From: Escallonia rubra
Lineage: Eukaryota; Streptophyta; Magnoliopsida; Escalloniales; Escalloniaceae
Assembly: GCA_033065855.1 (NCBI GenBank)
Contig: JAVXUO010001560.1
Span: 310,001-374,000 of the forward strand
Length of the DNA stretch: 64,000 bases
Direction: 5' to 3'
The translations under genes and the position numbers were made by a program. This document shows positions 11,391-59,328 of this stretch, in pieces. The notes beneath the pieces are model-generated. The model was not told the DNA's origin, ran no database searches, and saw only the letters and a program-made list of their open reading frames with translations. Within the stretch, counting starts at the first letter, position 1, and every line of letters starts with the position of its first letter.

Positions 11391-12227
11391 TAAAGGCATC
11401 CCATAATACAGAAGTTCTCTTTTTTTTTTTTGTTAGACGGTAAGAAATATCATTGGGTCAGATTTAACGTTAATCGTGACTCAGTTTTCTCCTCCAGCAA
11501 TTTTAAAGGCGCATCCCCTCATTGACCTTGTGCATTCAGAGTAGCATTTTTTTTCCGGCACCTGACCTCAAGATTTGAACCATAGGAGTCAAGGAAGAGA
11601 GAAACCTACTTGACGACCAGCCAATCCTTTAGAAATTAATCAGAAGTTTTCACAATAAAAATTTATTTTTTTACAATGTACTCCCTTTATCCCAAAAAAA
11701 CTGAGAGTATTTTTATATTGAGCTATCCCAAAAAATCATTTATTTTTTAAGTTAAAAAAGATTATCTGAGAGTGTGTTTGGGTGAGGTAATTGAACTGAG
11801 AATTTCACTTTCATAGAAGATTTTGAAATACATTGTATTAAATCTCTTGTTTGGATACTGATAAGATGGATTTACCAAATTCTAGGAGGGATTTGGAAAG
11901 GGAATTTGATGTGTTATCCAGACTAGTTATTTGTCAAAACCCTTCTATGAAAAGAGTCTCCATTATTTTAGGTAATTTCTTTCATAAAAAAAAAGGAGAT
12001 GCTCTCTCTCATTAGTTTATACACTATTAAATTATCTAGGTTCAAATTTTCAAGGGTTAATTACTCACGGCACCCCTGAGGTTTACCCTAAATTACACTC
12101 GGACCCCACTATCTTTGAAAATTACACTCAGCCCCAAAAATTTAGATTTCTTTGACGGGGTTAACGGCTGGTCATAAAAAGACCTTTCTGCCCTCGTATA
12201 TAACCACACAGTGTCTCTTGGGTTTTG

Positions 12228-12470
12228 CAGAATCAGCTTCTTAAGGCACTTTTTCTTCCTCTTTGCAACCTCCAAACAAGTTTTTACAGACTCTGATGTA
12301 CTTAATTTTGAAGCCTCCATCTCTGCTCTAATCTCCGCATTCTCAGTCTCAAGCCCTCTCACAGCAGCATTTGCACGGTCCACTTGGCCGCTTGCCTTCC
12401 TCAGAGCATTCTCCATCTCTGAAAGCCTCTTCATCGTAGGGTCTTCAGGGGTCGGCTTCCCTTGCTTCAG
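12228..12470 (-). pseudogene. Captured fragment of a RING-type E3 ligase gene (RF298-like)
   Basis: Reading on the - strand gives a coiled-coil segment containing KRLSEMENALRKASGQVDRA, then ETENAEIRAEMEASKL and CLEVAKRKKKCLKK. I recognise this from the central coiled coil of plant RF298/RF4-like putative E3 ubiquitin ligases. Only about 80 residues are present. The RING finger and N-terminus are absent, and similarity ends at CLKK shortly before the element's inner flank. It lies downstream of, and in a different frame from, the captured galacturonosyltransferase-like start, so a read-through transcript would not fuse the two proteins. It is cargo of the surrounding Pack-MULE, not a working gene. 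Confidence 0.8.
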
Positions 12471-12483
12471 TCGCTGGGTATGT

Positions 12484-12901
12484 AGATCTTGAAGCTGAGC
12501 GAGGGGAAGGTGGATCGGACGAGTTGGGTCAGGACTCGGGGACTGACCGGGTCGAATTCGGCGGCGATTAGGTGGAAGAAGAGATTCTCCGGGCAGGACG
12601 TGTGGCGGAGGACCGAGTGCACCGCCGCCATCGACCCGCGGAGGTACTCCGAGTCGAGGGTCATCGCCACGTGGACCAGCGACGCGTCGCACGACGTCGT
12701 GCCGACACCCTTGCCAGAGCCACCGTTGACAACCGGACAGTCAACTCCGTTACGGTACTCCGGCGCCTCGGCGAACCCGAAGGACCCATCGGAGCCCAGT
12801 TCCGTTCTCGCCGGGAAGGAACGAATCCCGAGGCAAATCAACGGCGCAGAGAGGGTTATCAGGAGAAAAGCGACGGCGGCGATTGAACCTGGAAGAACCA
12901 T
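12484..12901 (-). pseudogene. Captured 5' part of a galacturonosyltransferase-like (GATL) gene
   Basis: The likely original start is the ATG at 12901-12899, giving a hydrophobic N-terminal anchor (MVLPGSIAAVAFLLITLSAP), then the family signatures EAPEYRNG, LVHVAMTLDSEYLRGS and CPENLFFHLIA. This is the beginning of a GATL family glycosyltransferase (GT8), a type II Golgi protein of pectin or xylan synthesis. About 140 residues remain. The DxD catalytic region is missing, and the frame hits a stop at 12467-12469 just after the junction with the RF298-like piece. The upstream 60 bases hold a possible TATA element (TTTATAAATT on the - strand near 12960), so promoter and leader were probably captured too. 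Confidence 0.85.
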
Positions 12902-13596
12902 AATGGGTTCTTCTGGAGAGGAGAAAAAGCAACTAGTCAAAGGGGCTTGTTTGCCCCGAATTTATAAAGCGGCAGTGATTGCATTGTCGAGCAAGGAAGG
13001 AAGAAAACGACAGTTCGGGAAGATCAAAAAGGAAAAATGGTCAAAACCCACGCACAGGCATTAACAAGGGTGATTTATACGTGTAAGGAAAGATTCATGG
13101 AGGTGCATAAATGTCAAGAATAAAGAGCTGGGATTGCAAAACGCCCAAGAATAAAGAATGAAGAAGAAGAAGAAGAAGAAGAAAAACCCTAAGGGGCAAG
13201 AGGGGTTTTATTCAAGAAAGGGAGGGCATTTTGGGGATGAAAAATCCAAAAAGTGAAGTGTCAGAGCATCTTTCGACGGAGTTAGGGTCTCCGTCAATTT
13301 TGTGGGGCTCTGTGAAATGCGGGTACAAACCTCAGGGGAGAGGAGTGTAATTTTCAAAAGGTATGGGGGTCCGTGTGTAATTTAGGGTAAACCTCAGGGG
13401 TGCCGTGAGTAATTAACCCAATTTTCAAATGTAAATACACATATAAAGTATTCAATCTACAAAATCGCTCAAACACAATATTTACAATTCCATAAATTTG
13501 TAAATCAACGAATTTCAAAATGAATGAATTTTGAAATACAAAATAATTTGAAATTCCTCGTTCAAACGCACTCTAAGTATTTTAGGACGGAGGGAG

Positions 13597-14421
13597 TAAT
13601 ATTTTCCGGCACCCACCCAACTTGGGCAAAAACATCCACTTTTTCCTAATTTTGCCTACTTAGGAGTTAGGAACCCTCTCACCTCCACCTCCACCTCCCA
13701 CCCCCCACGGCCTCCGCTTCTCTCTCTCACACACACTCGCACTCACGACACACAGTCGCACACTCATCCCTCTCTCTAGTTACAGAAGAAAATGCAGTTA
13801 AGACCTCACCTACCCACACTACTCCCTGATCTACATTGTTGCCCAGACTGCTCTATATTTGAGGTTCAGCTTGTGTCCCCCATCTATTATCTACAATATT
13901 TTTCTCGTCATCACCACATCATTGCACCACTGCACTTCATTGCATCACTTTCACATGCTTCGTCTAACCATTGGGCTTGGTTCCCCTCATATTACACTCA
14001 GTTGTCATAATTCACTTGCCTAAATAAAACCCATATTCCATCGTTTCTCATTGTTGAATATGTAGGTAGTGATAGAAACTCAGTTGCTTAATAGTAGAAC
14101 TCGAAGGTATGCTTTGGTTCTGAAAATGGTCTTGCTTCAGTGTTTGCAAAATAGGTCTTCTTAGTTGTTATACTCGGGCTTGATTTCCGTTCAGTTCTCA
14201 TTAGAAGTGGTGGATTGCTCATTTAGTGTACGCACTTTATTTATGATTTTTCTCACTATGTACTTCAGTTCATACTCTATTGCATGTCACCTTTCTAATA
14301 ACCCAATTTAGGACTGAGTTTAGTCGTTGGTCCTTAGTCTTCGGTCAATCTAAACAGATACACACTTCTTCTACTTCCCCCTTTCTCCCTCTCGTGTGGT
14401 TTTGGAGTAGGTGAGGGAGGA
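13597..14421 (+). promoter_or_regulatory. Promoter and 5' leader region of the LRR receptor pseudokinase
   Basis: This is the only unique sequence between the nested transposons and the receptor start codon. It holds pyrimidine-rich CTCTCT runs around 13720-13780 typical of plant 5' leaders, and ATG triplets such as that at 13792, so a leader intron or an upstream reading frame is possible. Neither a TATA box nor leader splice sites can be fixed by eye. Confidence 0.4.
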
Positions 14422-17400
14422 ATGCAGTCCATATGTTGGATGATATTGTTGTTAGTAGAATTGGCAACAGGAAATCCTGACTTGGATGCACTTTTGGAGA
14501 TAAGAAAAGGAATCCAGAAAGACCCATCTGGGCGAGTTCTTGAGTCATGGAATTCCACTTCCTTGGCATCTGATGGGTGCCCCCAAGGTTGGTATGGCAT
14601 CAGTTGTAGTGATGGCCACGTGACGTCCATCGCGTTAAATAATGTAGGGCTTGTTGGAACCTTTGATTTCCCTGCTATTGTTGGGCTTAAAATGCTTCAA
14701 AACTTGTCAATTTCAAATAACAATTTGATGGGTAGTATCGCCGTGGAGATTGGTGCAATTGAGTCCTTGGAATATTTGGATCTCTCTTGCAATTTGTTTC
14801 TTGGGCCATTACCAACTCAACTGACCGATTTAAAGAATTTGGTGCTGCTGAATCTTTCCTCAAACAATTTTGAAGGCATAATTCCCTCCAGCTTTGGAAA
14901 TCTCGAGCAGTTAAAGTATCTTGATTTGCATTCTAATGGGTTTTCAGGGGACATTACACGTCTTTGGACACAGTTGGGTAGTGTGGTCTATGTGGACCTT
15001 AGCAGCAATGGTTTCTCTGGATCACTGGACTTGGGATTGGGAAACTCGACATTTGTTTCTGTGATTAAGTACTTGAATGTAAGCCACAACAACTTGACTG
15101 GAGAGCTTTTCTCTCATGATGGAATGCCATATTTTGACAGTTTGGAGGTGTTAGATACAAGTAATAATCGGCTTGTGGGTACTGTTCCTCCTTTCAATTT
15201 TATAGTCTCTCTTAGGGTACTTAGGCTCGGAAGCAACAAGTTATTGGGGTCTCTCCCAGAAGCGCTTCTGCAGGACAGCTCAATGATCCTATACGAATTG
15301 GATCTCAGCCTTAATCAGCTTGAAGGTATGTTGATTCTGATGCAAATGCTGGCATACCTGTTTTCAGACTAAACATGGGCAGGCACACCGAAAAGTGCTT
15401 ACCTTTAAAGGAAAGAAAGATTGCTGTTATCGATTCCTGGCTTCATATTTATGTTAGAAGTTTGTATATGATTTGGTGTCACTAGTTGTTTTACAATCTA
15501 TAGGACAAAAGAAGCTCTTTCCAGAACATCAACCAAGTATTTGCATTTTTCGCTGTGTTGATTTGACCTTATACTGTTGGTACATAGCTTACAATTTTGT
15601 GATAGTAGTTACATTGACAAGACTCGTTAGTAAGGTAACCCTGGTAAGGCGATGTACTGTAATCATCAACATTTCCTAAACCAAAATCATTGCAGCCATA
15701 TTGTGTTGTGTCCAGAAAAATGTCAGGTTGGAACTAGTTCAAATTTCTACATTTTCACCCAAGTAGTATATGGTTAAGTTTCTTCAAGCTAGTAATGTGA
15801 ATAAAATGTCGATGTTACCTTTAGTACATAGTGAAGTAACAGACAGGAGAAAAATATGAGAGAAAAAAGAAGCAAAAGCCTAGAATGATGCATCTTTCCA
15901 TCTCTTAGCTGTTGAGTAGTAAGTTAGAGTGCTGACTTGACAATTGTAATTATTGGGGGCAGAGACATTTGGCTTCAACAATACAGGTGGAGATTATACT
16001 GCAAGTTGGATTAAGCTTTTCTAACTTTACTTTTTGTTGGTAGGTATATTCCAACTTTAGTTGGACACAATCTAATTCTCCCTTAGAATTCTTCGGTAGG
16101 TGCAATCTAACCTTAGTTGGACACTCCTTCTTTAGAACTCTTCTGTAGGTGCATTCTAACCTTAGTTGCATGCATGGCAGAACGATTTAAGCACCTGGGG
16201 AAAATGCAGCTAAGTGCCACCAGAAGGCCTACATGTTAGATGAGAGAACCCAGCCCTCAATGAAAAGACTTAAACCAATAGATCCTGTATCCATCCTAGT
16301 ACATGTCCTTCTTTATCACACTCATCTAATTTAAGACAACACCTTATATGTGCTTACTTCCCCCTGTCCTCCCCCTTCCTCGGCCCCATCTTCTCACCAA
16401 AAAGAGTTGCTTAATTATTCTTTCATTTTAGTTATCTGAAACTTTGGAAGTTCATTCATGGGGCAAATTGTCATGATTTTTTTTCTGTAGAATGCTTCGT
16501 GTTGCTGACGGGGCATGTCATGGAATTTCGTCAATTATGTCGCTGTTATCCCTTTGTTTCAGTTTTTCAAGCCCTGACTTTGAATGTCTCAGTAGAATTG
16601 AGAAATGATAATAAATTGAAAGGAACCTTCCTATTCGACCATCCCAACAAAAGAGTGGCTACTGTCTCGTGCTTGTCAATCCAAACTGTGATGCTTGCGT
16701 TGGCATACTGCAGAATCATGATGTTCAGAGTGATCAGGAATACTGTATTCGGTGATTACATCATTTGCTTGACTGGTTGTCTTACTTGACCCCAATTTAG
16801 AAGCCAAAATTTCAAAATTCCAAGTACTATGTATTTTTAAGTGTTAATTAGACAGGAATGTGAAACGCAAGCAGAACTCAATGAGGTGTAGGCAAGCATT
16901 AGACGATGTGCATTAGACATTCCCATTAGTTTCAGATAATATGCCCATATGTCTGAATGTTTACTCCTCATGAATGTTGGATATTGCCTATGGTTGTCTA
17001 GTTTACCCTTTAACTCTTGTTTCATGTTAATTTCATATAATAGCTAGCTCAATCTTAATATCTCTCTTTCCTCTCCGTTAACCCCTGAAATAGTTAATTA
17101 AATTATCATATGTTACAGGTCCAGTAGCAAGTATCACCTCTGCAACTCTTAGGTATCTTAACCTATCATCTAACAAGCTGTCAGGCCCCTTGCCTGCCAA
17201 GATTGGGCACTGCGCCATCATAGATCTCAGTAATAATATGCTTTTGGGCAACCTGTCCAGAATTCAGGGTTGGGGAAACTATGTGGAAGTGATTGAGTTG
17301 AGTTCAAATTTATTTACAGGAACGTTGCCCAACCAGACTTCTGAATTCTTGAGGCTTGCTTCCTTCAAAATTTCCAGGAATTTGCTAGAAGGTGCCCTCC

Positions 17401-20400
17401 CAGCCATATTAGGTACATACCCAGAACTGAGGGTGATTGATTTAAGCCTCAACCGGCTTAATGGTCCCCTCCTTCCTAGCTTTTTCAACTCAACTGTCTT
17501 GACTGATGTCAACCTGTCTTTCAACAACTTCACCGGGACCATACCTATTCAAGAAAATAATTTATCAGTTTATGCTACCAAGAATTTGAGCTTGACATCT
17601 CTTGATTTGTCACATAATGCATTAGCTGGTCCGGTACCACCGGAGTTTGGTAAATTTCATAACATGGTGAATCTCGACCTCTCTAGCAACCAATTTGAAG
17701 GCGGTATCCCTAACGACCTTCCAGATGAAATGAAAGGGTTCAATGTGTCGTATAATAATCTCTCTGGGGTTGTACCTGAAAGTTTACAGAGGTTTCCTGA
17801 TTCAGCATTTCATCCAGGAAATCCGTTGCTGATTCTCCCATATTTGGCATATCCACCGAGAAGTGTTCCAGCCATGAACTTGAGGCGGCATGGTTCCCAT
17901 ATGAAGTCTGCTATCAGGGCTGCCCTTGTTGCAGGTTTGTTTGGAGGCATCTGTTGCATAGCTTTATTGGCAGTGATGATCTATTGCAAAGCCCATCGAC
18001 ATGAAGGTGGGAGACAGAGTCTCAAAGAAAGTACTGAAAAGAAAGGTGTTCAGCAAGGGGGTTCCCTACCAGACGCATCGTCCCTGAATACACACATTGA
18101 CCCACCATCATCTTCAGCACCACTGAGGCATCTGAAGGCCTCATCAGGTGTACAGGTTCCCAAAGATCTTGGTGTGCAAGAACCAATTAGAAAACAGGAA
18201 AGCATATCTTCTCCCGTGTCTCTCATGTCATCTGCACCTTCGAGAAACCAACTTCAGTATGAGAATCCTGGTTCAAACAAGGCACTTTCTCCAGATAAAC
18301 TAGCTGGGGATCTACATCTTTTTGACACCTCTTTGGTGCTGAGTGCTGAAGAACTTTCATGTGCTCCTGCAGAAGTTATTGGGAGGAGTTGTCATGGAAC
18401 ATTATATAAAGCTATTCTTCCCTCTGGCCAAGTAATCACTGTTAAGTGGTTAAGGGAAGGGATTGCAAAAGGAAAGCAGGAATTTGCAAGAGAAGCTAAG
18501 AAGCTTGGACACATCAAACATCCAAATTTAGTGTCACTGCAAGGGTACTACTGGGGTCCCAAGGAGCATGAGAAACTTATATTGTCGCATTATATCAATG
18601 CACCATGCTTGGCTCTCTATCTTCATGGTAAGCGTCAAGCTTTTTATTGCATTGCACAACCTAGAACTGTCTTGTTATTTTTTTCTTTTTTTCTGGATTG
18701 TCGAAGTACGGCTAATTAACTTGTTATTGTGGGCATCACTCCTTTTTCTATCCAGTAATATGTTTAACTCAAAGATAATCTAATGAAAAGTAAAAATTAG
18801 AAGCATGATCGGAAACTTGAAAATGCCAAGTTCTGATGTTCAAAACTGTTCAATCTGGTTGAGTGGTATACTGGCTAGATCTAACCATGAGAAAGTAGTC
18901 GTACCTTGCTAAAGTAAAAGACCAAAGAATCAATCCACTCTCCTTTTTTATATCAAATAATGGTGACATAGGCTTCCATATTTCGTTGAAGATAAGAAGT
19001 CTTCCTATCATTAATTTGTCTGAACTTTCAGCACTGTTTTCCTGTTGTATATGATCTTAGTCTAAAAGCCATCTTAACAGAACCTTGACTTAACTGTAAC
19101 CAGAACACATTCACGTTGTATTTGTCCCTAACAAGCAGTGGCAAGCAAGGAAATCCACATAACTTTATATTCAGTTAGTGTGCGATAAAATGGTGAGTTA
19201 CTGAATGTGCAGGAAGAACCAGCGTTGAATTTTCTGGGCTGGCATGAAATATGGCTTAAGTGTTACTTTTGCGTGAGCAGAATTTGTTTCTAATTGTGCT
19301 GTCCATTTGGATGATACACGAGGCACTGTTACATCAATCTTGAAACCTTTTTGCTTTCATGATATATATTTTAGCAACTGGCTATAGTTACTATTAGTGT
19401 GATAATTAGGATTAACGTGTCAGCAAGTTCTTATATGGTATGATACGCTTTATCAGTATTTCTTGAATGTTAATTATGAACACTTCATGACTGTAATCTC
19501 TGAAAGTTCAAGAGGTCTGAGGATTTACCACTCTACACTTATGGACTATAGTCCTCATTAGTATTCATGCTTATAAATCTTTTCAATGTTCTTAGAGTCA
19601 TCTGTATTCCCACCTTGAGATAATCAAAAGTACTAAATGGAACTGAATTTTGGAACCGCTGGCCAGCTTTATTGAGTTGAATTACTTTTTCCCTCTGTCT
19701 GAAGTCATATTGAGTTGGTTCAAATTGGCAAGATTTATCAAAATTTAGGGCATGGTAAAACCAGGTTAGGAAGGAATCTTATTAGCGGGATATAGTATGT
19801 TTTTAATGGGCTATTAACTGCTTTAATCATTATACTGGTTCCCAATCACATCAGGCAACTCTTTCTCACTCACTCTTTCTAGAAGGCCTAATCACACAAG
19901 ACCATTTATATTAGTTTGAGAGTGAAAGTCACATCCATTTCTTTCTGTTTCTGCAGAGACAGACCCCAGAAAGTTCCCACCCTTGTCTCTTGATGAGCGG
20001 CTCAAGATTGCTATGGATGTAGCCTGTTGCCTTAACTACCTTCATAATGAGAGAGCAATACCCCATGGAAACCTGAAATCCACTAACATCTTATTAGAAA
20101 CTCCCAAACTGGATGCACTCCTAACAGATTACAGTCTCCACCGCATATTGACATCAGCTGGTACGGCTGAGCAGGTTCTCAATGCAGGTGCCCTTGGATA
20201 CCGTCCACCCGAATTTTCCAGCACAAGTAAGCCATGTCCATCTTTGAAGAGCGACGTTTATGCTTTTGGGGTTATTTTGTTGGAGCTTTTGACCGGGAAA
20301 GACTCTGCGGGGATAGTATCTGGGAACCAAGGGATGGTGGATCTTACAGAATGGGTTAGATTGTTGTATGCAGAAAACCGTAGCACCGAGTGCTTTGATG

Positions 20401-20564
20401 TGCGGATGTCCGATTCGCGTAACGTGGAGGTCCTACCTAAAGAGCTTTATGATATGCTTCAGGTAGCTCTTAGATGTATCCTTCCAGCAGCCGAGAGACC
20501 TGATATGCAAACTATTTTTGAAGATCTTTCATCCATAGTACATGAACTAACCTTAGCAGGGTAG
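14422..20564 (+). CDS. LRR receptor-like pseudokinase (At2g27060-like), 3 exons
   Basis: Exons 14422-15325, 17119-18627 and 19957-20564 join in frame (phase 1 at both junctions, GT-AG introns) to 1006 residues. A signal peptide (about 1-17) precedes an LRR ectodomain (about 60-535 with many LDLS/NLS repeats), one transmembrane helix (about 569-591), a Ser/Pro-rich juxtamembrane part and a kinase-like domain (about 715-1000). The ATP lysine is present (VKW, K744). The P-loop is altered (GRSCHGT), the catalytic HRD is HGN (841-843) and DFG is DYS (862-864), so phosphotransfer is unlikely. The order and the phrase GHCAIIDLSNN match my recollection of Arabidopsis At2g27060 (LRR-RLK), a family acting at the plasma membrane in signalling. 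The ligand is unknown. The start is the first ATG before a good signal peptide. Confidence 0.93.
15326..17118 (+). other. Intron 1 of the LRR receptor pseudokinase
   Basis: It has a GTATGT donor and a TGTTACAG acceptor. The intron is 1793 bases long and contains a three-copy tandem repeat at 16041-16170. Otherwise nothing is recognised in it. Confidence 0.9.
16041..16170. repeat. Short tandem repeat in intron 1
   Basis: Three units start at 16041, 16096 and 16146 with TAGGTG/TATA(A)TTC and contain AACCTTAGTTGGACAC or close variants. The unit is 50-55 bases and the third unit is partial. Confidence 0.75.
18628..19956 (+). other. Intron 2 of the LRR receptor pseudokinase
   Basis: It has a GTAAGC donor and a TTTCTGCAG acceptor. 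The intron is 1329 bases long and splits the kinase-like domain between the N-lobe and the helix preceding the HGN motif. No repeat or gene is recognised inside. Confidence 0.9.
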
Positions 20565-27800: not shown

Positions 27801-30800
27801 AAACACAAAAATCACCGGTCACTTGAAGGAAGAAGGTAGGATTTCCATTCCTGTCAAAAATAATGATTGCTCCAGCTTCCACTCAGTCACTATCCAATAT
27901 TGATGCCAAGTAGGTTTTGAGTACATGTGGAGGTACCACAAAGAGTGTAGTCCAAGTCACATGAAATATAAATATTGTGAGACAAAGCAAGGTTAGGAGC
28001 AACGTAGAGACCAAGGCATCCTAGTCAGAGCCTGAAGAGTGGCAGTGCTGCAATAGCGAAGGCGCGGAGTGAGTATGGAGTGACAATCAAAAGTCCAAAA
28101 TACTAGGGGCCAGAGTCTGAGTCCAGAGTCAGGTCCACTGCTTAGGATCTGATGCTTAGGTTCTCTCTCTTTTGTAACTTGTTCGTTATGAAGTTTTAGA
28201 GTGAGAAAGTGAAAGTGTGCAAATGAATTCGGTTTCCAAATCCTTCTGAAAATGAGCTCTCTAGTCCGTGGGCTCATCGGCAGCTAAAAATGTCTCGTCA
28301 TCAAGTGACACATGACGCTCCCTGGTGTCACGGGCTGCCCCTTGCACCCGCCCAGCACCGCGCCCCCGCGCCCATCCTGCACAGCGCCCCCGCGCCCATC
28401 CTGCACAGCGCCCCCGCGCCCATCCAACACGCGCCCATGCGCCCTCGCAAGTTCTTCAAGTCTCGCGCCCATGCGCCCAACTGCAATGCCCGTGCACGCC
28501 AAAAGCCAACAGTGAAGATCTGAAGATCCAGGCGTGCGTTTTTGCTCAATTTTGGTGGAGATCACCCTTGTATATATTTAAGTTTCCCAGTAAAATTTCA
28601 AGTCATTCCGAGTTGTATTTCTCTAAAAAGGGACACTATGACTCCTCGCACATAGTGACGTCTACTACTGTCACTTAGGAAAATCCTCTTAGTGGTACTA
28701 TATGGGAGGTCAAGTACACCCATACCCGAGAGTCCCTTGCTTTGTTTTAGTTTGCCTGTTTAGCTAGATTGCACATTGTGGATGCAAACAAAGCCTTCTG
28801 TAAGTTGTACTGATGTTGTTGAAGTAATGAGAATATTTGGGACCGCTTTGCTCGTGTTGAAATTTACTTCTTTGTGCACTGTTTTATGCAATGTCGATGC
28901 ACTGCTTGCTGTAGATTGTTGGGATTGTTTGGCGGACTCTTCTTGCAAGAGGCAAGTCGAGTGCCACACACGGTTTCCTTTGTGCCATCAAGGGCCACCG
29001 TGTGTCAGGTGGTATCAGAGCCGCGGTTGCCCAAGGGACCGTGGCTTCAGCTAAGAAAATAGTGTGGGATAGTTTGTTGAGAAAAACTATGGCCAACACG
29101 AAAGAGAGAATCGATGCTTTGGAAGCACAGATACAGAGCATGTTCAAGAGCGACCAGGATGCTCCAGGCATCCTGAAGCAATTCTCCCTTCGCCTGGACG
29201 CGTTGGAAGTGAATCTTGAAGCCACTGATAATGCCCGATATGCTGAGAACATGGATTGGGAGGGCAGGTTTCAGGAGCTTCAGGATCGAGTGGAGCACCA
29301 AACACGGCATACTGAAGGTATAGACTGGTAGTCTAAATTTCAAGAGCTCCAGGATCGAGTGGAGCTTCTTAGTCGTGCAGTGGTTAACACACCCGCAGGG
29401 GGTGCGGAGCACTCATCGAGGCCCCGAGTGCCAGAGCCCAAGAGTTACGAGGGAGCCCGTGACGCCAAGGAATTAGAAAACTTCCTTTTCAATATAGAAC
29501 AATACTTTCGAGCCATCAGAGTAGACTCGGAAGCGACGAAGGTGTCAATGGCTGCCACGTACTTGGTTGGAGATGCTAAGTTATGGTGGCGGAAGAAGTA
29601 CGCAGAGATCGAAGATGGGTCTTGCGTCATAAACACATGGGATATACTCAAACGCGAGCTAAAGAGCCAGTTTTTCCCAGAGAACACCGCATTCAACTCG
29701 AGGAAAGCGTTGTTGGAATGCAAGCACACCGGATCGGTCCGAGAATATTGCCAGGCATTTTCTACCTTGATGTTGGACATCAGCGATATGTCTGTAGTCG
29801 ACAGACTCTTCTTCTTCATGGAAGGATTAAAACCATGGGCTTGCACAGAGCTTAATAGGCGTTGGGTGAACAACCTTAACGAAGCCATCATCGCTGCCGA
29901 GAGCCTTTCAGATTACAACTCCGAACCACAGAGACCCCCTCAGAGAGGGAATCCAAGCAGGAGTAATGGTGGCAAGAAGCCAGGGGGTCAAGCGCCAAAC
30001 CAAAGTTGGGGCAGTAAAAGCAGTTGGGCGTCAAACTCTTCCACCCAACAGAAGAGTGGAGTTGGGTTCAAAGCCAAGCCTGACGCTAGCACCAGCGGAG
30101 AAGTGAAAAAACCTGCTTTCAGGGGTTGCTTCTTGTGTCAAGGGCCGCACGTGATCGCTAACTGTCCGCAACGACAGATGATGAATGCCTTCTTTGACAA
30201 CATTGGGCAGGTGCAACGTGGGGAACAATCTGGCTCTCAATCAAGGCATCCACCAACAGAGGAACAAACAGACGCACAAGATTACGAAGAGGAAGATGCC
30301 GTCGGGGCCTTTCCTCAGTGGTGTAATGCTGTGACAATGCAGGTTAGGAACCCCGAAGAGAGCTCGACTGGGGAAAAGCCTAAAGACATGCCGCCAAAGA
30401 AAAAGAGCGATGTACCAGGGAAAGGCTTGATGTATGTGGACATCAAGGTTAACGGGAAGGCCATCAGGGCCATGGTGGACACAGGAGCTACCCATAATTA
30501 CATTTCAAGCACTGAAGTGGAAAGACTGAGTCTAACTCTAGAAAAAGGGTGCGGACGGGTGAAGGCTATCAACTCTGCCGCACAGCCAGTAGCGGGGATA
30601 GCGAGATCTGTTTTGATCAAGATTGGCCCATACGAAGGAAGGACCAACTTTTCAGTAGTCATCATGGACGACTTTAAGCTGATCCTTGGGTTGGAGTTTC
30701 TGCGTGACACGAAGACCACAGTGATGCCATGCACCAACTCTCTGGCCATGCTTGGGAGTAAACCGTGTGTCATCCCGACTATATCTCCTAGGGCGGGAGA

Positions 30801-33800
30801 GCGTTCTATCTCAGCCCTCCAGTTAAAAAAGGGATTAAAACGGGACGAAACAACCTACCTTGCCATGCTACGGTGGGACAAGATTGAAGAAGTATCGGGA
30901 CCATTACCCAAAGAAGTTAAAGTGATATTAAACGACTTTGAAGATGTGATGCCTGATGAATTGCCGAAGAAATTACCACCCAGAAGGGCAATTGACCATG
31001 AGATCGAGCTTGTGCCAGACACGAAGCCACCCGCCCGAGCTCCGTATCGAATGTCACAACCAGAACTTGCTGAACTCAGAAAACAATTGACAGAGTTGCT
31101 AGACACGGGTTTGATCACTCCAGCGAAGTCGCCTTATGGTGCACCAGTCCTCTTCGAGAAGATACAAGATGGTTCCTTGCGGATGTGTGTGGACTACAGG
31201 GCGCTAAACAAGGTGAGGATTCGGAATAAGTATCCTATCCCTTTAGTCGCCGATTGTTTTGATCAGCTTAGTAGGGCGAGAGTGTTTACCAAGTTGGACT
31301 TGAAGTCTGGGTATTGGCAGGTCCGAATCGCCGAAGGTGACGAGGCGAAGACAACTTGTGTCACCAGAAACGGTGTGTATGAGTTCCTGGTCATGCCGTT
31401 CGGCTTGACCAACGCCCCGGCCACATTTTGCACCTTGATGAATCAGGTTTTGCAGGACTACATTGACGATTTTGTAGTGGTGTATCTCGATGATATTGTG
31501 ATCTACAGTTCTAGTTTGGACGAGCATCTGAAGCACTTAAGGAAGGTGCTTACCCGACTGAGAGAGCACGAGCTATATGTGAAGCTGTCGAAATGCACCT
31601 TTGCCCAGACCAAGATTAAATTCTTGGGCCATATGATAGAACAGGGTCAGATTAGGATGTACTCAGCTAAAGTTCAAGTGATACAGGAGTGGCAGCCGCC
31701 AACTAATGTTTCAGAATTGAGATCTTTCCTAGGATTGACCAACTATTATAGGAAATTTGTTCGAGATTATTCGAGAATGGCCCATCCCCTAACCGAACTT
31801 CTGAAGAAGAGAAAAGTTTGGGAATGGTCCAAGGAATGTCAATCGACCTTCTTGGCCATGAAGCGGGCTATGTCTGAAGATCCGGTACTTGCTCTCCCCG
31901 ATGTGTCGAAGTCCTTTGAAGTTCATACAGATGCTTCTGACTTTGCACTAGGAGGAGTTCTAATGCAAGAATGCCACCCGGTGGCATATGAGAGTAGGAA
32001 GCTCAACGAAGCAGAACGTCGCTACACCACTCAAGAGAAAGAGTTACTCGCGGTAGTGCATTGTCTCAAAGTTTGGAGGCACTACCTGCTTGGTTCTAGC
32101 TTCATAGTGCGGACAGACAACACTGTTGTGAGCCACTTCTTGAGTCAATCTAAGCTCACCTCGAAACAGGCCAGGTGGCAGGAACTTCTGGCAGAATTCA
32201 ACTTCATGCTCGAGTACAGGGCAGGCTCAACCAACAGTGTAGCAGACGCCCTCAGCAGGAGAGCCGAACTAGATCAGGTAGCATTGATGGCCATGAATGC
32301 TATTGTTAGAGCAGACAGCCGAGTTGCCATCAACATCGGAAAAAAGATCAGGAAGGCCCTTCCCAGGGACCCGGTTGCCCAACAACTGCTGAAACTGATC
32401 GAGAGCGGTAAAACTTGACAGTTTTGGCAAGAAGATGGTTTGCTGATGACCAAAGGAAGACGGGTATATGTCCCCAGAGTTGATGATATGAGACGAACAT
32501 TGATTCGAGAATGTCCTGACACCCTTTGGGCAGGCCATGCCGGAGGAGAAAGAACATTAGCTCTCCTTCAACAAGGTTACTACTGGCCCCAAATGGGGGA
32601 TGAAGTGCAGGAGTATGTGAAGACATGTCTTACTTGTCAGCAGGACAAGGTGGAGCGTAAGAAGAAAGCAGGGTTACTACAACCGCTGTCGGTCCCCAAG
32701 AGATCGTGGGAGAGTGTGTCGTTGGATTTCATCACTGGTCTGCCGAAGGTTGAAGACTTAGGCACGATTCTTGTTGTCGTTGATCGGTTTAGCAAGTATG
32801 TGAGCTTTATCGCAACACCCAAGTATTGCTCAGCCGAAGACACAGCGCAACTTTTCTTTAAGTATGTGGTGAAGTATTGGGGCATGCCTCAAAAATTGTC
32901 AGTGATCGGGACTCCCGCTTCACTGGAAACTTTTGGACTGAACTCTTTAAGTTATTCGGATCCCAACTTTTGACGAGTTCAAGTTATCATCCAGAATCAG
33001 ACGGTCAGACGGAGCGGTTCAATTCCATGCTAGAAGAGTACCTCCGCCATTTTGTCAGTGCAACAAAGAAAATTTGGGTCAAGCTACTGGATGTTGCCCA
33101 GCTGTGTTTCAACTCACGCAAAAGCTCTTCGACAGGGAAGAGTGCTTTTGAGATTGTGAATGGACAACAACCGTTACTACCCCACACAGTAAATGTCCCC
33201 AACGCAGGAAAATCTCCAAGGGCCATAAGCTTCAGCGAAGAATGGAGGCAGAATATAGATCTAGCTCACTCCTACCTGGAGAAGGCAGCCAGAAGAATGA
33301 AGAAACACGCCGACAAGAACAGGAGATCTCATGAGTTTAACGTGGGCGACAAAGTTATGGTTAAGCTATTGCCACAAGATCGCAAATTTCTAAGGGGAAG
33401 AGACTCTCGTCATTTGCAGAAATATGAGGGACCCCTGACAATAGTGAAGAAGATAGGCAAGATGGCTTACAAAGTTGATCCGCCACATTGGTGGAGCCGC
33501 CAGCTCCATCCCGTCTTTCACGTCAGCATGTTGAAGCCATTCTATGAAGACACAGCAGACCCCTCCAGGGGCCAAATCAGGAGACCAGGACTCAAACCCA
33601 AAGCGGCAGGAAAGCGAGTTGCTGAAGCTATTTTGAATGATAGAGTGATTACAGCATCCCGCAAGCGCCATCAGGAGTACCTAGTCAAGTGGCAGGGATA
33701 TATGGACGAAGAGAACACTTGGGAACAAGCAGCAGACTTATCAGCCTACACCGACAAGATTGAAGCCGGTACATGCAGAAGTTGACGAGGGCGTCAACAG

Positions 33801-57800: not shown

Positions 57801-59109
57801 CAGGCTTGACAACAGCACAGGGATATAATCATGCTCCCTGATATACAATCCCCATTTAAAAAAGTTCACCTTTTGGCTGCTTACACTAAGCAGAGAACCA
57901 AAAGAAGAACCAGAGTTGAGGAAATTTTCTGGACCATTAGTGAGGATGTTGACTTTTGTGTGTGTGTGTGTGTTTGAGAGAGAGAGAGAGAGTACGTTCT
58001 TTAGGTGCAAAAATTGGACGAAAATGAAACTTGTTTGCTTCAAGCATCCTTGGAACTTCTCTTCCAGAGTCAGATGCTTTAACAAAGAGAGACTCAATAT
58101 CTTTCATGGTCGTAAGGAAATCCTTGTGGGAAACCTCGCTTTGATGACCATTTTCCTTCGCCGGTGTTGTCTTTACATCATTGGGGAGTACGAATCTTGA
58201 GGACGTGGCTCTTAGTGGTGACAAATCAGGAGAGTTGCTCTTCTCCCCATTCAAAAACTCAGTATCTGATGTTTCTCTTTCCGCAGAGGGCATGCCCGGT
58301 GTAGCAGTTGCAGCATACTTATCCGCTGCCCTATTAACATTTTCAAAACTTCGAACCAGCGTATCTACAGATGGCTCATCATCAAATTCATCTTCAGATT
58401 CCTGAGACTGTTCTGTTGCAGAAGAAGAAACACTCGCCTCATCTTCCAGTTCAGGAATTCCCTCCTCTTCCCCAAGTCTATGCATGTCATCAGCATTCTT
58501 CAACCCTTGGTTTGATCCTCGACCTTCTTGAGGAGAGAAATGATTGTCAATTGGATGCAAAAGGCCGAAGTAATCCCAAGGTGGAGTTCCGGCCTGGACA
58601 GAAGGAGCATCGAAGGTCGAAGATGTTGCATGTCTTTCAACAGAAGAAGGTATGGTGTCCCTCGGGGGACCTGAAGGAGTTACTAACTCTGCAATAGGAA
58701 CAGAAGGTTTCTCTTCAACCATTTTAGAATAAGAACCTCTAAATTTCATATAATTCGTATGGTACCGAGTCGAAGTTGGAGGTGAAGGAGGTGGAGAACT
58801 GTTTTCAGCTGCATCCACACGTTGCGAAAAAGAGGGAGAAGAGAGTGCAAATTGGGAAAGGGACTTCTCAGTTAGCGCAACTGGCTCAGGTGTTGCACTA
58901 GTGGAAGTATATAAGGAGGACTCTCTTGGAGCTTCAGGTTCAAAAAACTTCCTTAAAGCAGTACCTGCGATTCTGAGTGACTGTATATAAGCAACGTGGG
59001 TGGCTGCTAGTGAGCACCTGCCATTAAGTGCTTGTCTAATAAACTTCTTTCTTTCACGACAAAGCCGTAGAGCCTTGCCTTCCTCTATTTTAGAGCTTGA
59101 GGCCCCCAT
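24824..59109 (-). CDS. DUF630/DUF632 protein (NRG2 family), 5 coding exons over 34 kb
   Basis: Coding exons on the - strand are 59109-57996, 57590-57519, 52485-52271, 49798-49575 and 25469-24824. All junctions are GT-AG and in frame, giving 756 residues. The start MGASSSKIEEGKALRLCRER is the canonical DUF630 start with a potential N-myristoylation glycine. A Ser/Pro/Glu-rich linker follows, then DUF632 from about residue 326 (VSHKDFLTTMKDIESLF, FSCGEDPSQVQE, KYLTWHRT, YAWEKKLYDEVK, RIRVAIHRIDSIS, MWEVMFECHKHQF). The family includes Arabidopsis NRG2, a nitrate-signalling regulator, and the At1g52320 type. The role of this copy is unknown. The exon 2/3 junction gives glycine where I expect glutamate, and the exon 1 donor is the non-consensus GTACTC. 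Intron 4 is 24.1 kb. A 5' UTR exon probably lies near 61576-61700. Confidence 0.92.
27220..27528. mobile_element. hAT-like element, family C, copy 1 (309 bp)
   Basis: The termini CTGTGTTACAAGGA and, in reverse, CTGTGTTGCATGGA are flanked by ACCTCCAT (27212-27219) and ACCTCAAT (27529-27536), an 8-bp duplication with one mismatch. The interior aligns end to end with the copy at 56425, sharing the block CCATGTCCAAGTGTCGAGTG and a run of GTGTCCGACA motifs. It has no coding capacity. Confidence 0.85.
28326..29007 (+). repeat. 5' LTR of the chromovirus
   Basis: It begins TGTCACGGG and ends GTGTGTCA. It holds three tandem copies of a C-rich unit (CGCCCCCGCGCCCATCCTG and variants, about 28358-28430) that the 3' LTR does not have. 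A TATA-like TTGTATATATTTAAG lies near 28567. Confidence 0.93.
29010..29021 (+). other. Primer binding site of the chromovirus
   Basis: TGGTATCAGAGC starts two bases after the 5' LTR and is complementary to the initiator methionine tRNA end. Confidence 0.9.
29089..33785 (+). pseudogene. gag-pol of the chromovirus, interrupted
   Basis: Domains in order are gag capsid (about 29440-29900, with WWRKKY), a CX2CX3HX4C knuckle (about 30130), aspartic protease (DTGA at 30478), reverse transcriptase (YLDD at 31483), RNase H (about 31915-32265), integrase (zinc region about 32500-32640, then the D, D, E core to about 33010) and a chromodomain (about 33675-33740, YLVKWQGY). Defects seen are an in-frame TAG at 29329-29331 in gag, a TGA at 32416-32418 between RNase H and integrase, and a frameshift between about 32880 and 32930 inside the integrase core. 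The first histidine expected in the integrase HHCC motif appears as proline. The element therefore cannot make its own full polyprotein. Confidence 0.92.
33804..33816 (+). other. Polypurine tract of the chromovirus
   Basis: The purine run AGTGGGGGAGAA lies directly before the 3' LTR start and serves as the plus-strand primer in this class. Confidence 0.8.
33817..34453 (+). repeat. 3' LTR of the chromovirus
   Basis: It begins TGTAACGGG and ends GTGTGTCA. It lacks the tandem C-rich units of the 5' LTR but has a short CTTCAAGCACAACGCCCGCG insertion absent from it, so the LTRs differ mainly by repeat-unit gain or loss. Confidence 0.93.
34459..36140. other. Unclassified, probably old transposon sequence
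   Basis: No protein motif is recognised. About 35330-35500 is purine-rich with repeated GAGGGGGTGAAGG-like pieces. Its composition is unlike the flanking unique intron sequence. Confidence 0.35.
36149..37542. mobile_element. MITE-like element with a long CAC-rich core
   Basis: The ends CTAGTGTGTTTGGAACC (36149) and, in reverse, CACTCTGTTTGAAACC (from 37542) start an imperfect inverted repeat with AT-rich arms (36149-36370 and 37360-37542). The flanking TTAAAAGA and TTAAAGAA are a possible imperfect 8-bp duplication. The core is a strand-biased CAC/ACC tract. No transposase is present. Confidence 0.6.
36389..37340. repeat. Degenerate CAC/ACC trinucleotide-rich tract, about 950 bp
   Basis: CACCAC, ACCACC and CACCAT steps dominate, with interspersed GTT and ATC triplets. 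G is nearly absent on this strand except in short GTT/GTC pieces. The His/Thr/Pro-rich open frames in it are products of composition. Confidence 0.85.
37880..38715. mobile_element. hAT-like element, family A, copy 2 (836 bp)
   Basis: Termini TAGACCTGGCAA and TTGCCAGGTCGA are flanked by an exact 8-bp duplication TATGCAAG (37872-37879 and 38716-38723). Both ends hold dense arrays of CGGGTA/TACCCG motifs. The middle is GC-rich with CCGGCGGTGGAG repeats. It has no transposase. The 8-bp duplication and TIR type indicate hAT. Confidence 0.92.
38724..39489. other. Unclassified GC-rich sequence
   Basis: An open + strand frame at 38908-39240 is Arg/Ser/Gly-rich with no family resemblance and is probably chance in a GC-rich repeat. 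No function is proposed. Confidence 0.3.
39738..40312. mobile_element. hAT-like element, family D (575 bp)
   Basis: Termini CTAGAAAGCACCGACACC and, in reverse, CTAGGTAGCACGGACATC are flanked by an exact 8-bp duplication CTTTAGGA (39730-39737 and 40313-40320). Both ends are filled with GTGTCCGACAC-type motifs, and the core is AT-rich. No coding capacity is present. It sits inside the PMD-like pseudogene. Confidence 0.92.
41019..41917. mobile_element. hAT-like element, family B, copy 1 (899 bp)
   Basis: Termini CTATGAAGCACGGG and, in reverse, CTAGGAAACACGGACTCC are flanked by an exact 8-bp duplication CATGAAGA (41011-41018 and 41918-41925). Subterminal GGTGCGG/CGGATACG motifs and a GAAGAAGAA-rich core match copies at 51419 and 59329, to which it is inverted. 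It splits the PMD-like pseudogene between GPIYMKT and LYTRLD. Confidence 0.92.
43011..43392. other. Junction between the PMD-like pseudogene and the Gypsy remnant
   Basis: No gene is seen. The + strand PMD-like remains and the - strand Gypsy remains converge here. Confidence 0.4.
47406..47527. repeat. 66-bp in-frame tandem duplication in the Gypsy gag
   Basis: The block at 47406-47461 recurs at 47472-47527 with a period of 66 bases (22 codons), so a FHLKCVECTNFSKDKT segment of the - strand gag reading is doubled. The copies are nearly identical, so the duplication is recent compared with the decay around it. Confidence 0.9.
47947..49063. mobile_element. hAT-like element, family A, copy 3 (1117 bp)
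   Basis: Termini TAGACCTGGCAAA and TTTGCCAGGTCTA are flanked by an exact 8-bp duplication ATGAGGGG (47939-47946 and 49064-49071). It is inverted relative to copies 1 and 2: its right end, reversed, matches the left end of copy 2. CGGGTA/TACCCG arrays occupy both ends. It contains a 64-bp duplication (48317-48444) and a 34-bp duplication (CAGATCTGCTTCTATTG at 48597 and 48631). It lies within the decayed Gypsy gag. Confidence 0.93.
48317..48444. repeat. 64-bp tandem duplication inside hAT-A copy 3
   Basis: The block beginning GCCGCCATAGATGGAGCTG at 48317 repeats at 48381 with a single obvious substitution (ATAGATGG to ATCGATGG) through CGGATCTGCCATGGCTCTGC. Confidence 0.9.
49799..52270 (-). 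other. Intron 3 of the DUF632 gene
   Basis: It has a GTAATA donor (from 52270) and a TTGATTTCAG acceptor (ending at 49799), and is 2472 bases long. It contains hAT family B copy 2. The rest shows nothing recognisable. Confidence 0.9.
51419..52169. mobile_element. hAT-like element, family B, copy 2 (751 bp)
   Basis: Termini CTAAGAAGCACAG and, in reverse, CTATGAAGCACCGG are flanked by CGTATAAT (51411-51418) and CATATAAT (52170-52177), an 8-bp duplication with one mismatch. Subterminal GGTGCGGATACGCGG motifs and a CTTCTTCTT-rich core (about 51930-51970) match copy 3, in the same orientation. Confidence 0.9.
54690..54815. repeat. CA/TA-rich simple sequence
   Basis: Alternating ACACAT, ATATGC, CATACA and TATATAC steps form an imperfect purine-pyrimidine alternating tract within intron 2. 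Confidence 0.7.
56425..56761. mobile_element. hAT-like element, family C, copy 2 (337 bp)
   Basis: Termini CTATGTTACATGGA and, in reverse, CTATGTTACATGGAC form a near-perfect inverted repeat. The flanks TTTAGATT (56417-56424) and CTTAGATC (56762-56769) share six of eight bases, so the duplication has decayed or the limits are off by a base. It aligns end to end with copy 1 at 27220. Confidence 0.8.
57591..57995 (-). other. Intron 1 (coding) of the DUF632 gene
   Basis: The donor is GTACTC, directly followed on the - strand by a CT repeat and then an AC repeat. The acceptor CTTTTTCTTTGTCAG is strong. The join gives KERGSLTLSLLLNCFSCGED, which matches the family pattern, so the unusual donor is likely used. 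Confidence 0.85.
57957..57992. repeat. (TG)n(GA)n compound microsatellite at a splice donor
   Basis: On + the tract is TG repeats (about 57957-57974) followed by GA repeats (about 57976-57992), ending two bases from the exon 1 donor of the DUF632 gene. On the transcribed sense it reads CT then CA repeats immediately after GTACT. Confidence 0.92.
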
Positions 59110-59328
59110 TAAGACAAACCTTGTTTTGCTGCAGGTAAATCCTTTAAGTAAGTAACCAAAGCAGAAGCTCCTTCCTGAGGAATAATTACCTGTGTTAGAG
59201 AAACAGCAAAAACCATGAGGAAATGCTGGGAATCAAGACTCCTCCAAAGTTGCTGCACAGAATAGCTAAAGTTACTTTATCAAAATGTTTAGCATATACA
59301 CACAAAACAACCTGCATATAGATGTGTG

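Follow-up and report, generated by a model that had tools for sequence, protein, structure and literature searches.

A Pack-MULE with pieces of GATL9 and MIP1, nested in two MITE-like elements of Escallonia rubra, and its sibling copies

Background

Pack-MULEs were reportedly the subject of Jiang et al. 2004. Derivatives of MuDR/Mu elements carry internal deletions with very short microhomology at their ends. Stowaway and Tourist MITEs are defined by TA and 3-bp target duplications (TSDs), respectively, and a short TIR together with the 3-bp TSD marks the Tourist/PIF-Harbinger-like class.

Passages of PMC8277862 size Pack-MULE duplications at 305 bp, call protein-coding Pack-MULEs rare and the origin of Pack-MULEs perplexing, and discuss gap-filling and template-switching models. 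In the portion of PMC8903248 that concerns us, multi-locus Pack elements are reported to be frequent in maize, and the assumption is made that one sequence should seldom be captured more than once independently.

The window examined here, by which we mean the whole stretch of 64,000 nucleotides that was analysed, is C1857:310001-374000 of the Escallonia rubra assembly GCA_033065855.1 (566 Mb and 3233 contigs according to the assembly paper, PMC10759652); the genome searched has 3222 contigs and 566 Mb. E. rubra is a South American shrub. We regard it as highly probable that the window holds a Pack-MULE within a Tourist-like MITE within a Stowaway-like element, that the cargo was captured at the DNA level, shortened by end-joining deletions and mobilised in trans, and that the window copy most likely has no protein role.

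Results

The MULE and its TIR family

The MULE spans 12054-13419 of the window (1366 bp). A preliminary description had claimed an exact 9-bp duplication and a TIR perfect over 45 bp, and both are there: AATTTTCAA stands on the left (12045-12053) and on the right (13420-13428), and the first 45 bp of the two ends are identical, within a full TIR pair of 68 nt (12054-12121 and 13352-13419) that is inverted at 91% identity. The left end (12054-12234, + strand) consists of the TIR and subterminal sequence with, judged by eye, about 7 bp of filler at its end; the right end (13120-13419, + strand) begins with about 35 bp of locally repeated sequence and continues as the family right end and TIR. 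The element therefore has the 9-11 bp TSD and the long, similar TIRs of a MULE. A Pfam search for a transposase in the element, covering 14 of 27 ORFs of at least 40 aa (the longest inside the element included), gave no match. Judged on its sequence, the core of the stack is confirmed as the Pack-MULE that had been proposed: pieces of host genes lie between MULE ends, intact parental genes stand elsewhere, and the scanned ORFs are free of transposase matches.

Searched with up to two mismatches, a 35-nt TIR core gave 446 + 404 matches in the genome, against 0 for the reversed control; the occurrence of this TIR is not due to chance. At two ends per element, these matches would correspond to about 400 elements. 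Other MULEs sharing it, a search for which had been suggested, were found across the E. rubra genome. Fifteen further loci with the same TIR were read at both ends, and nine of them carry an exact 9-bp TSD, all different, with the window as the tenth; L011 has a 10-bp TSD, and L009, L013, L022, L024 and L025 have no exact 9-bp TSD. The left end of the MULE recurs at 94-99% identity in members with other cargo (L021, L022, L024-L027, L030-L034). The Pack-MULE belongs to a large E. rubra family with one common TIR. Members hold MIP1 sequence of a second cargo family (family B, below), actin-domain pieces and other open frames, so mixed cargo is ordinary for MULEs with this TIR.

Some members are recorded here in their own right. 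L025 and L026 are nearly identical elements, and a 313-aa ORF was read in L025. Pfam recognised an actin-domain piece, which we take to be ARP6-like, as cargo in both L021 and L025; L024 and L026 were also grouped with them. In L025 the piece is joined in an open frame to a tail that presumably resembles the tail of an auxin response factor. Pfam gave no match on this tail, nor on other open frames of the family members.

Cargo and donor genes

The cargo of the window copy lies on the minus strand throughout. A 247-bp fragment of MIP1 exon 1 (12235-12481) is 99.2% identical to the donor at C3139:79502-79748. It is followed by truncated GATL9 coding sequence (12479-12901), with the ATG at 12901, a stop codon ending at 12467 and an ORF of 144 aa, and by GATL9 upstream DNA (12902-13119), recognised by comparison with the donor, in which TATAAA lies about 60 bp before the ATG. 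The whole GATL piece, coding plus upstream (651 bp), is 98.2% identical to its donor.

The two pieces had been named as GATL and RF298-like; the first was borne out, as GATL9, and the second had to be reassigned. RF298 was discarded as source of the second piece, since the match to the MIP1 protein of E. rubra is 96% and covers 75% of the region scored, and more distant paralogues reach at most 55% to MIP1. By these similarities the RF298 label is a near miss, and the second gene is MIP1, which encodes a RING protein.

The preliminary description had asked for intact donors with introns and full domains, and had named the absence of matching donor genes as grounds for abandoning capture. Both donors are present in the genome. 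The GATL9 donor lies at C3077:145725-146831, and its protein (P0243, 390 aa) has a full GT8 domain. The MIP1 donor occupies C3139:78232-79875 + 84013-84531, encoding aa 1-548 and 545-717 of a 717-aa protein; the split of the protein over two genomic blocks points to an intron of about 4.1 kb, and the RING and PIR2-like domains are intact in the annotated protein, P0123. No MULE TIR was found beside the donors (L019, L020, L029, L035, L041), and an adjacent TIR was rejected as the cause of capture for the donor places inspected.

Sibling copies and internal deletions

The genome search returned the window copy and ten further copies of the cargo, plus pieces of both donors. Ten complete copies, that of the window included, were aligned; L017 (C536), which runs into a contig end, was left out. 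The longest copy, L012 (2080 bp), is made up of the left end (1-181), MIP1 (182-510), filler (511-515), GATL9 (516-1777) and the right end (1778-2080). Its MIP1 piece is identical to the donor at 329/329 bp. Its GATL9 piece (1262 bp against 1264 donor bp, 99.05% identity) begins 220 donor bases ahead of the ATG, so that the TATA is part of it, and reaches codon 348 of the 390; a 2-bp gap in GATL9 relative to the donor is found in the copies compared. On this alignment L012 is close to the progenitor, and the copy in the window does not represent the capture in its original form.

Relative to L012, a gap of 711 bp is present at four sites (the window, L010, L011 and, by its identity with the window, L009), gaps of 134 + 26 bp in L013 and L015, one of 676 bp in L014 and one of 632 bp in L016 and L018. 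Because the L012 sequence continues both donor genes unbroken, the gaps must be losses from the nine shorter complete copies and not gains in L012. These nine fall into four different forms of internal deletion, and the larger breakpoints show microhomology of 2-3 bp. The GATL-MIP1 join of the window is, by the same comparison, an internal deletion of a longer capture, with TAT (12479-12481) as its 3-bp microhomology. An 11-bp microhomology at the 711-bp deletion, read from a BLAST overlap, was rejected, the exact common bases being TAT only. One base, at position 143, is common to the 711-bp-deletion copies only. An exact 9-bp TSD flanks 7 of the 10 complete copies; that of L011 has 10 bp, and none is clear in L009 and L013.

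Over all 1366 bp the window copy shows no difference from L009, which stands at another site; this is consistent with recent movement, although the 100% identity may be overstated, since polishing of a nanopore assembly can homogenise copies, to judge from methods passages in PMC10759652. Against L012, the remaining copies diverge by 0.6-1.9%, and the copies overall are 97-100% alike. In a table of nine copies, from which L009 was omitted as the exact match of the window, six fixed substitutions set the copies apart from the donors, which corresponds to an age of about 0.14-0.54 million years at assumed substitution rates of 7e-9 to 1.3e-8 that do not come from Escallonia. We also considered whether uneven fixed differences place the capture of GATL before that of MIP1, and rejected this (P(0 in 329) = 0.21, Fisher 0.36).

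Further captures of the same genes

A second cargo family, B (L030-L034; C884, C1526, C1845, C922 and C2096), has the same TIR and carries a neighbouring part of MIP1 exon 1 (764 bp, 98.3-98.8%). One larger MIP1 capture, trimmed differently in the window family (A) and in B, would account for the shared TIR, the same orientation and the position of the two parts, 77 bp apart in one exon, and the fixed changes do not set the families apart (0/329 in A against 6/764 in B, not significant, Fisher 0.19). We nevertheless think a single capture rather unlikely, while treating it as a serious contender: B retains about 35 bp more of the common left end than A, and each family has its own join, so that separate trimming needs extra coincident breakpoints.

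L072 (C1146:16600-18700) contains the GATL9 3' end with sequence downstream of it at about 87%, flanked by long inverted repeats that are about 80% alike; portions of this stretch recur in L073 and L074. Since the inverted repeats of L072 are unlike those of the window MULE, a second transposon has probably taken up GATL9 as well. Together with family B, this makes it probable that each donor was sampled more than once.

Coding potential and gene models

L012 contains a 365-aa ORF in which 345 of 348 residues equal those of GATL9 and the GT8 domain is whole (E 2e-53); at its end, 17 other residues replace the last 42 of GATL9. In L016 (C1332:34856-36302) the 632-bp deletion between the captured genes has fused GATL and MIP1 in one open frame of 295 aa, with 110/115 residues matching GATL9, a short stretch, and then 111/120 matching MIP1 aa 388-507. 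It is conceivable, but in our estimate decidedly improbable, that the MULE family is a mobile gene assembler, which carried off a near-whole GATL9 with its core promoter and whose derivatives have in-frame GATL-MIP1 fusions, such as that of L016, that are transcribed and translated. If this were so, capture, fusion and spread could be traced in living sister copies.

The nearly complete ORF of L012, its full GT8 domain and its upstream DNA with TATA could also be taken to mean that this copy is a working mobile glycosyltransferase gene under selection. This we hold to be very improbable: GATL is broken, truncated or fused in 9 of the 10 complete copies, that is, in all but L012 (L018 has a stop), the GATL9 end of L012 itself has been exchanged, and divergence is too small for a selection test.

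As a protein gene the window copy most likely has no role, since its product would be no more than a GATL N-terminus of 144 aa. The MIP1 piece of this copy is in a different frame from the 144-aa ORF, which presumably stops upstream of the catalytic DxD motif of GATL; a PDB sequence search with the window GATL piece gave no match. The GenBank model RJ640_016291 (P0003) corresponds to window 14630-12467 on the minus strand, and we could reproduce its exons exactly: a GT-AG intron joins the 144-aa GATL ORF to an exon 1 that is antisense to the receptor kinase exon described below. We judge this model to be a prediction artefact. In RJ640_015419, on the contig of L003, the MULE GATL piece is likewise fused to other exons. 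Annotators should be warned that both models rest on transposon cargo.

Mode of capture

The captured GATL9 upstream DNA argues that the cargo would have been copied from DNA and not from mRNA, leaving the donors intact. Capture from processed mRNA might have been read from the lack of introns in the cargo. The GATL9 frame is, however, open in one piece and the MIP1 piece lies within a single open exon, so that missing introns prove nothing; the 220 captured donor bases upstream of the GATL9 ATG include the TATA box, and a run of A is absent at the joins inspected. We therefore consider an mRNA origin extremely doubtful.

Bases of no assigned source occur at three joins (about 7, 5 and about 35, partly judged by eye), the stretch of about 35 bp with a local repeat; a DNA-level origin by template switching during break repair fits such bases at three joins and the local repeat in the last. 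We envisage that template switching during the repair of a break in the MULE supplied the cargo. In L012 the MIP1 exon piece and the nearly whole GATL9, with its upstream DNA, are linked by the 5-bp filler. The internal deletions would then stem from incomplete (abortive) repair finished by end joining, and a MULE transposase encoded elsewhere would drive movement in trans.

The nested stack and its genomic setting

The proposed nesting was upheld, with a Stowaway-like element split by a Tourist/PIF-Harbinger-like MITE and the MITE in turn split by the 1366-bp MULE. The left part of the middle element (GAGTGTGTTTGG...; 11770-12053, + strand) and its right part (ending ...CAAACGCACTC; 13429-13573, + strand) were delimited by a joined-flank search and an alignment of eight copies. 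The query of 541 nt had the MULE removed and one TSD kept, and 40 of 779 candidates were scored. Of the resulting 51 match rows (one being the window itself), 43 cross the MULE point; 38 of these 43 begin between query bases 74 and 103, and every one of the 43 stops between 485 and 530. In all eight MITE copies fetched the MULE target is single and unbroken, reading AATTTTCAA in six and AATTTTTAA in two. The TSD of the middle element is TGA on the left (11767-11769) and TAA on the right (13574-13576, compared with the eight fetched copies), with one mismatch. An exact 3-bp TSD flanks four of the eight: TAA/TAA (L057, L063), TTA/TTA (L061) and CAA/CAA (L062). L059 gives TGA/TGA only if its right end is shortened, and the other three have no clear TSD. 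These duplications, exact in four copies and in a fifth with a shortened end, suggest that the middle element is a Tourist/PIF-Harbinger-like MITE.

The outer element comes to 109 nt once the inner layers are removed, with TA flanks and CTCCCT ends. As had been claimed, it is flanked by TA and Stowaway-like: TA (11679-11680) precedes CTCCCTTTATCCC, and GGACGGAGGGAG precedes the paired TA (13597-13598), so that a TA TSD and a CTCCCTCCGT-type TIR are both present. The two ends agree over a short span (27/60 ungapped; 28 columns aligned). Its left part (CTCCCTTTATCCC...GATTATCTGA; 11681-11769, + strand) was recognised by similarity to relatives, whereas the relatives read match only the first bases of its right part (GTATTTTAGGACGGAGGGAG; 13577-13596, + strand). 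Nine relatives besides the window match at 75-82%, mainly in the left part; the eight fetched (L064-L071), at 74-82% identity to the left part, are all uninterrupted at the insertion point of the middle element and differ from the window in their right halves. In L068, GATTATGTGAGTATTTT is unbroken where the window holds the middle element. The genome search found no close full-length copy of the 109-nt element. The distance of these relatives and their divergent right halves make this the weakest-supported layer.

MITE copies without the MULE and outer-element relatives without the MITE make the order of insertion recoverable, and on these sequences it would run from the outer element through the middle MITE to the MULE. 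Sites lacking each layer had been proposed as a check; within the E. rubra genome, related copies were found that lack the MULE or the middle MITE. The MULE-free copies are clear (eight of eight fetched), and the putative MITE-free outer relatives, such as L068, are more distant. The preliminary description had also held that the order of events can be recovered, which stands for the three insertions and the deletion and falls for the relative timing of the GATL and MIP1 captures. The larger tandem duplication that would have undone the insertion, or any segmental duplication or inverted repeat mimicking one, has virtually no chance of being correct, for although several short direct and inverted repeats occur in the region, the 43 crossing rows pass the site without the MULE, the target is unduplicated in every fetched copy, and the same MULE stands elsewhere with other TSDs.

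The stack was said to lie about 0.8 kb upstream of a receptor gene; by our measurement, about 0.82 kb separates its end from the ATG (14422) of a + strand LRR receptor kinase gene (14422-20564), with LRR and kinase domains across three open stretches. Elsewhere in the window, a Ty3-type retroelement coding region lies at 28915-33785 (+ strand), with gag, protease, RT and RNase H domains in the frame 29332-32418, and an open stretch at 57937-59232 (- strand) carries DUF630 and the start of DUF632 and is probably the first exon of such a gene. An Rfam search of the window at gathering thresholds gave no match, and a tRNA scan of the window found none.

Discussion

The two outer layers resemble Stowaway and Tourist MITEs in their TA and 3-bp TSDs, in the CTCCCTCCGT-type end and the GAGTGTGTTTGG-type TIR, and in the multicopy nature of the middle element; the outer element differs from Stowaway MITEs in being a short form of 109 nt. 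Like the deletion derivatives of MuDR/Mu, the MULE copies have very short microhomology at the ends of their internal deletions. Here, unlike there, the deletions remove captured host DNA, and one of them put two captured genes in one open frame (L016).

The closest likeness is to the Pack-MULEs of rice, maize, tomato and Arabidopsis, as passages in PMC3310237 and PMC8277862 portray them: a non-autonomous MULE with a long TIR and a 9-bp TSD, pieces of host genes whose intact donors stand elsewhere, multiple copies with different TSDs, and microhomology or filler at the joins. The E. rubra family differs in retaining a copy with a nearly complete ORF and upstream DNA; against the 305 bp given in that part of PMC8277862, L012 holds 1262 + 329 bp. 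Like the Pack-TYPE elements treated in the relevant portion of PMC8903248, the E. rubra element combines DNA taken from different chromosomal loci. Set against the assumption made there that repeated capture is rare, MIP1 pieces occur in two E. rubra families with the same TIR (though perhaps from one larger capture), and part of GATL9 occurs again in L072, an element with other inverted repeats. Literature searches gave nothing relevant to independent captures of one parental gene among the matches listed, and the term GATL was absent among the matches listed for Mutator-like capture.

Multi-gene Pack elements are already known, and the E. rubra case is unusually complete in its intermediates. 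One genome holds both donor genes and a copy close to the progenitor, along with the four deletion forms and related sites that are empty. The joins are legible to the single base, so that models of gap filling, of template switching and of abortive repair become testable. The E. rubra stack is a well-preserved example of known plant gene shuffling, in which the intact source genes and the sibling copies are still present.
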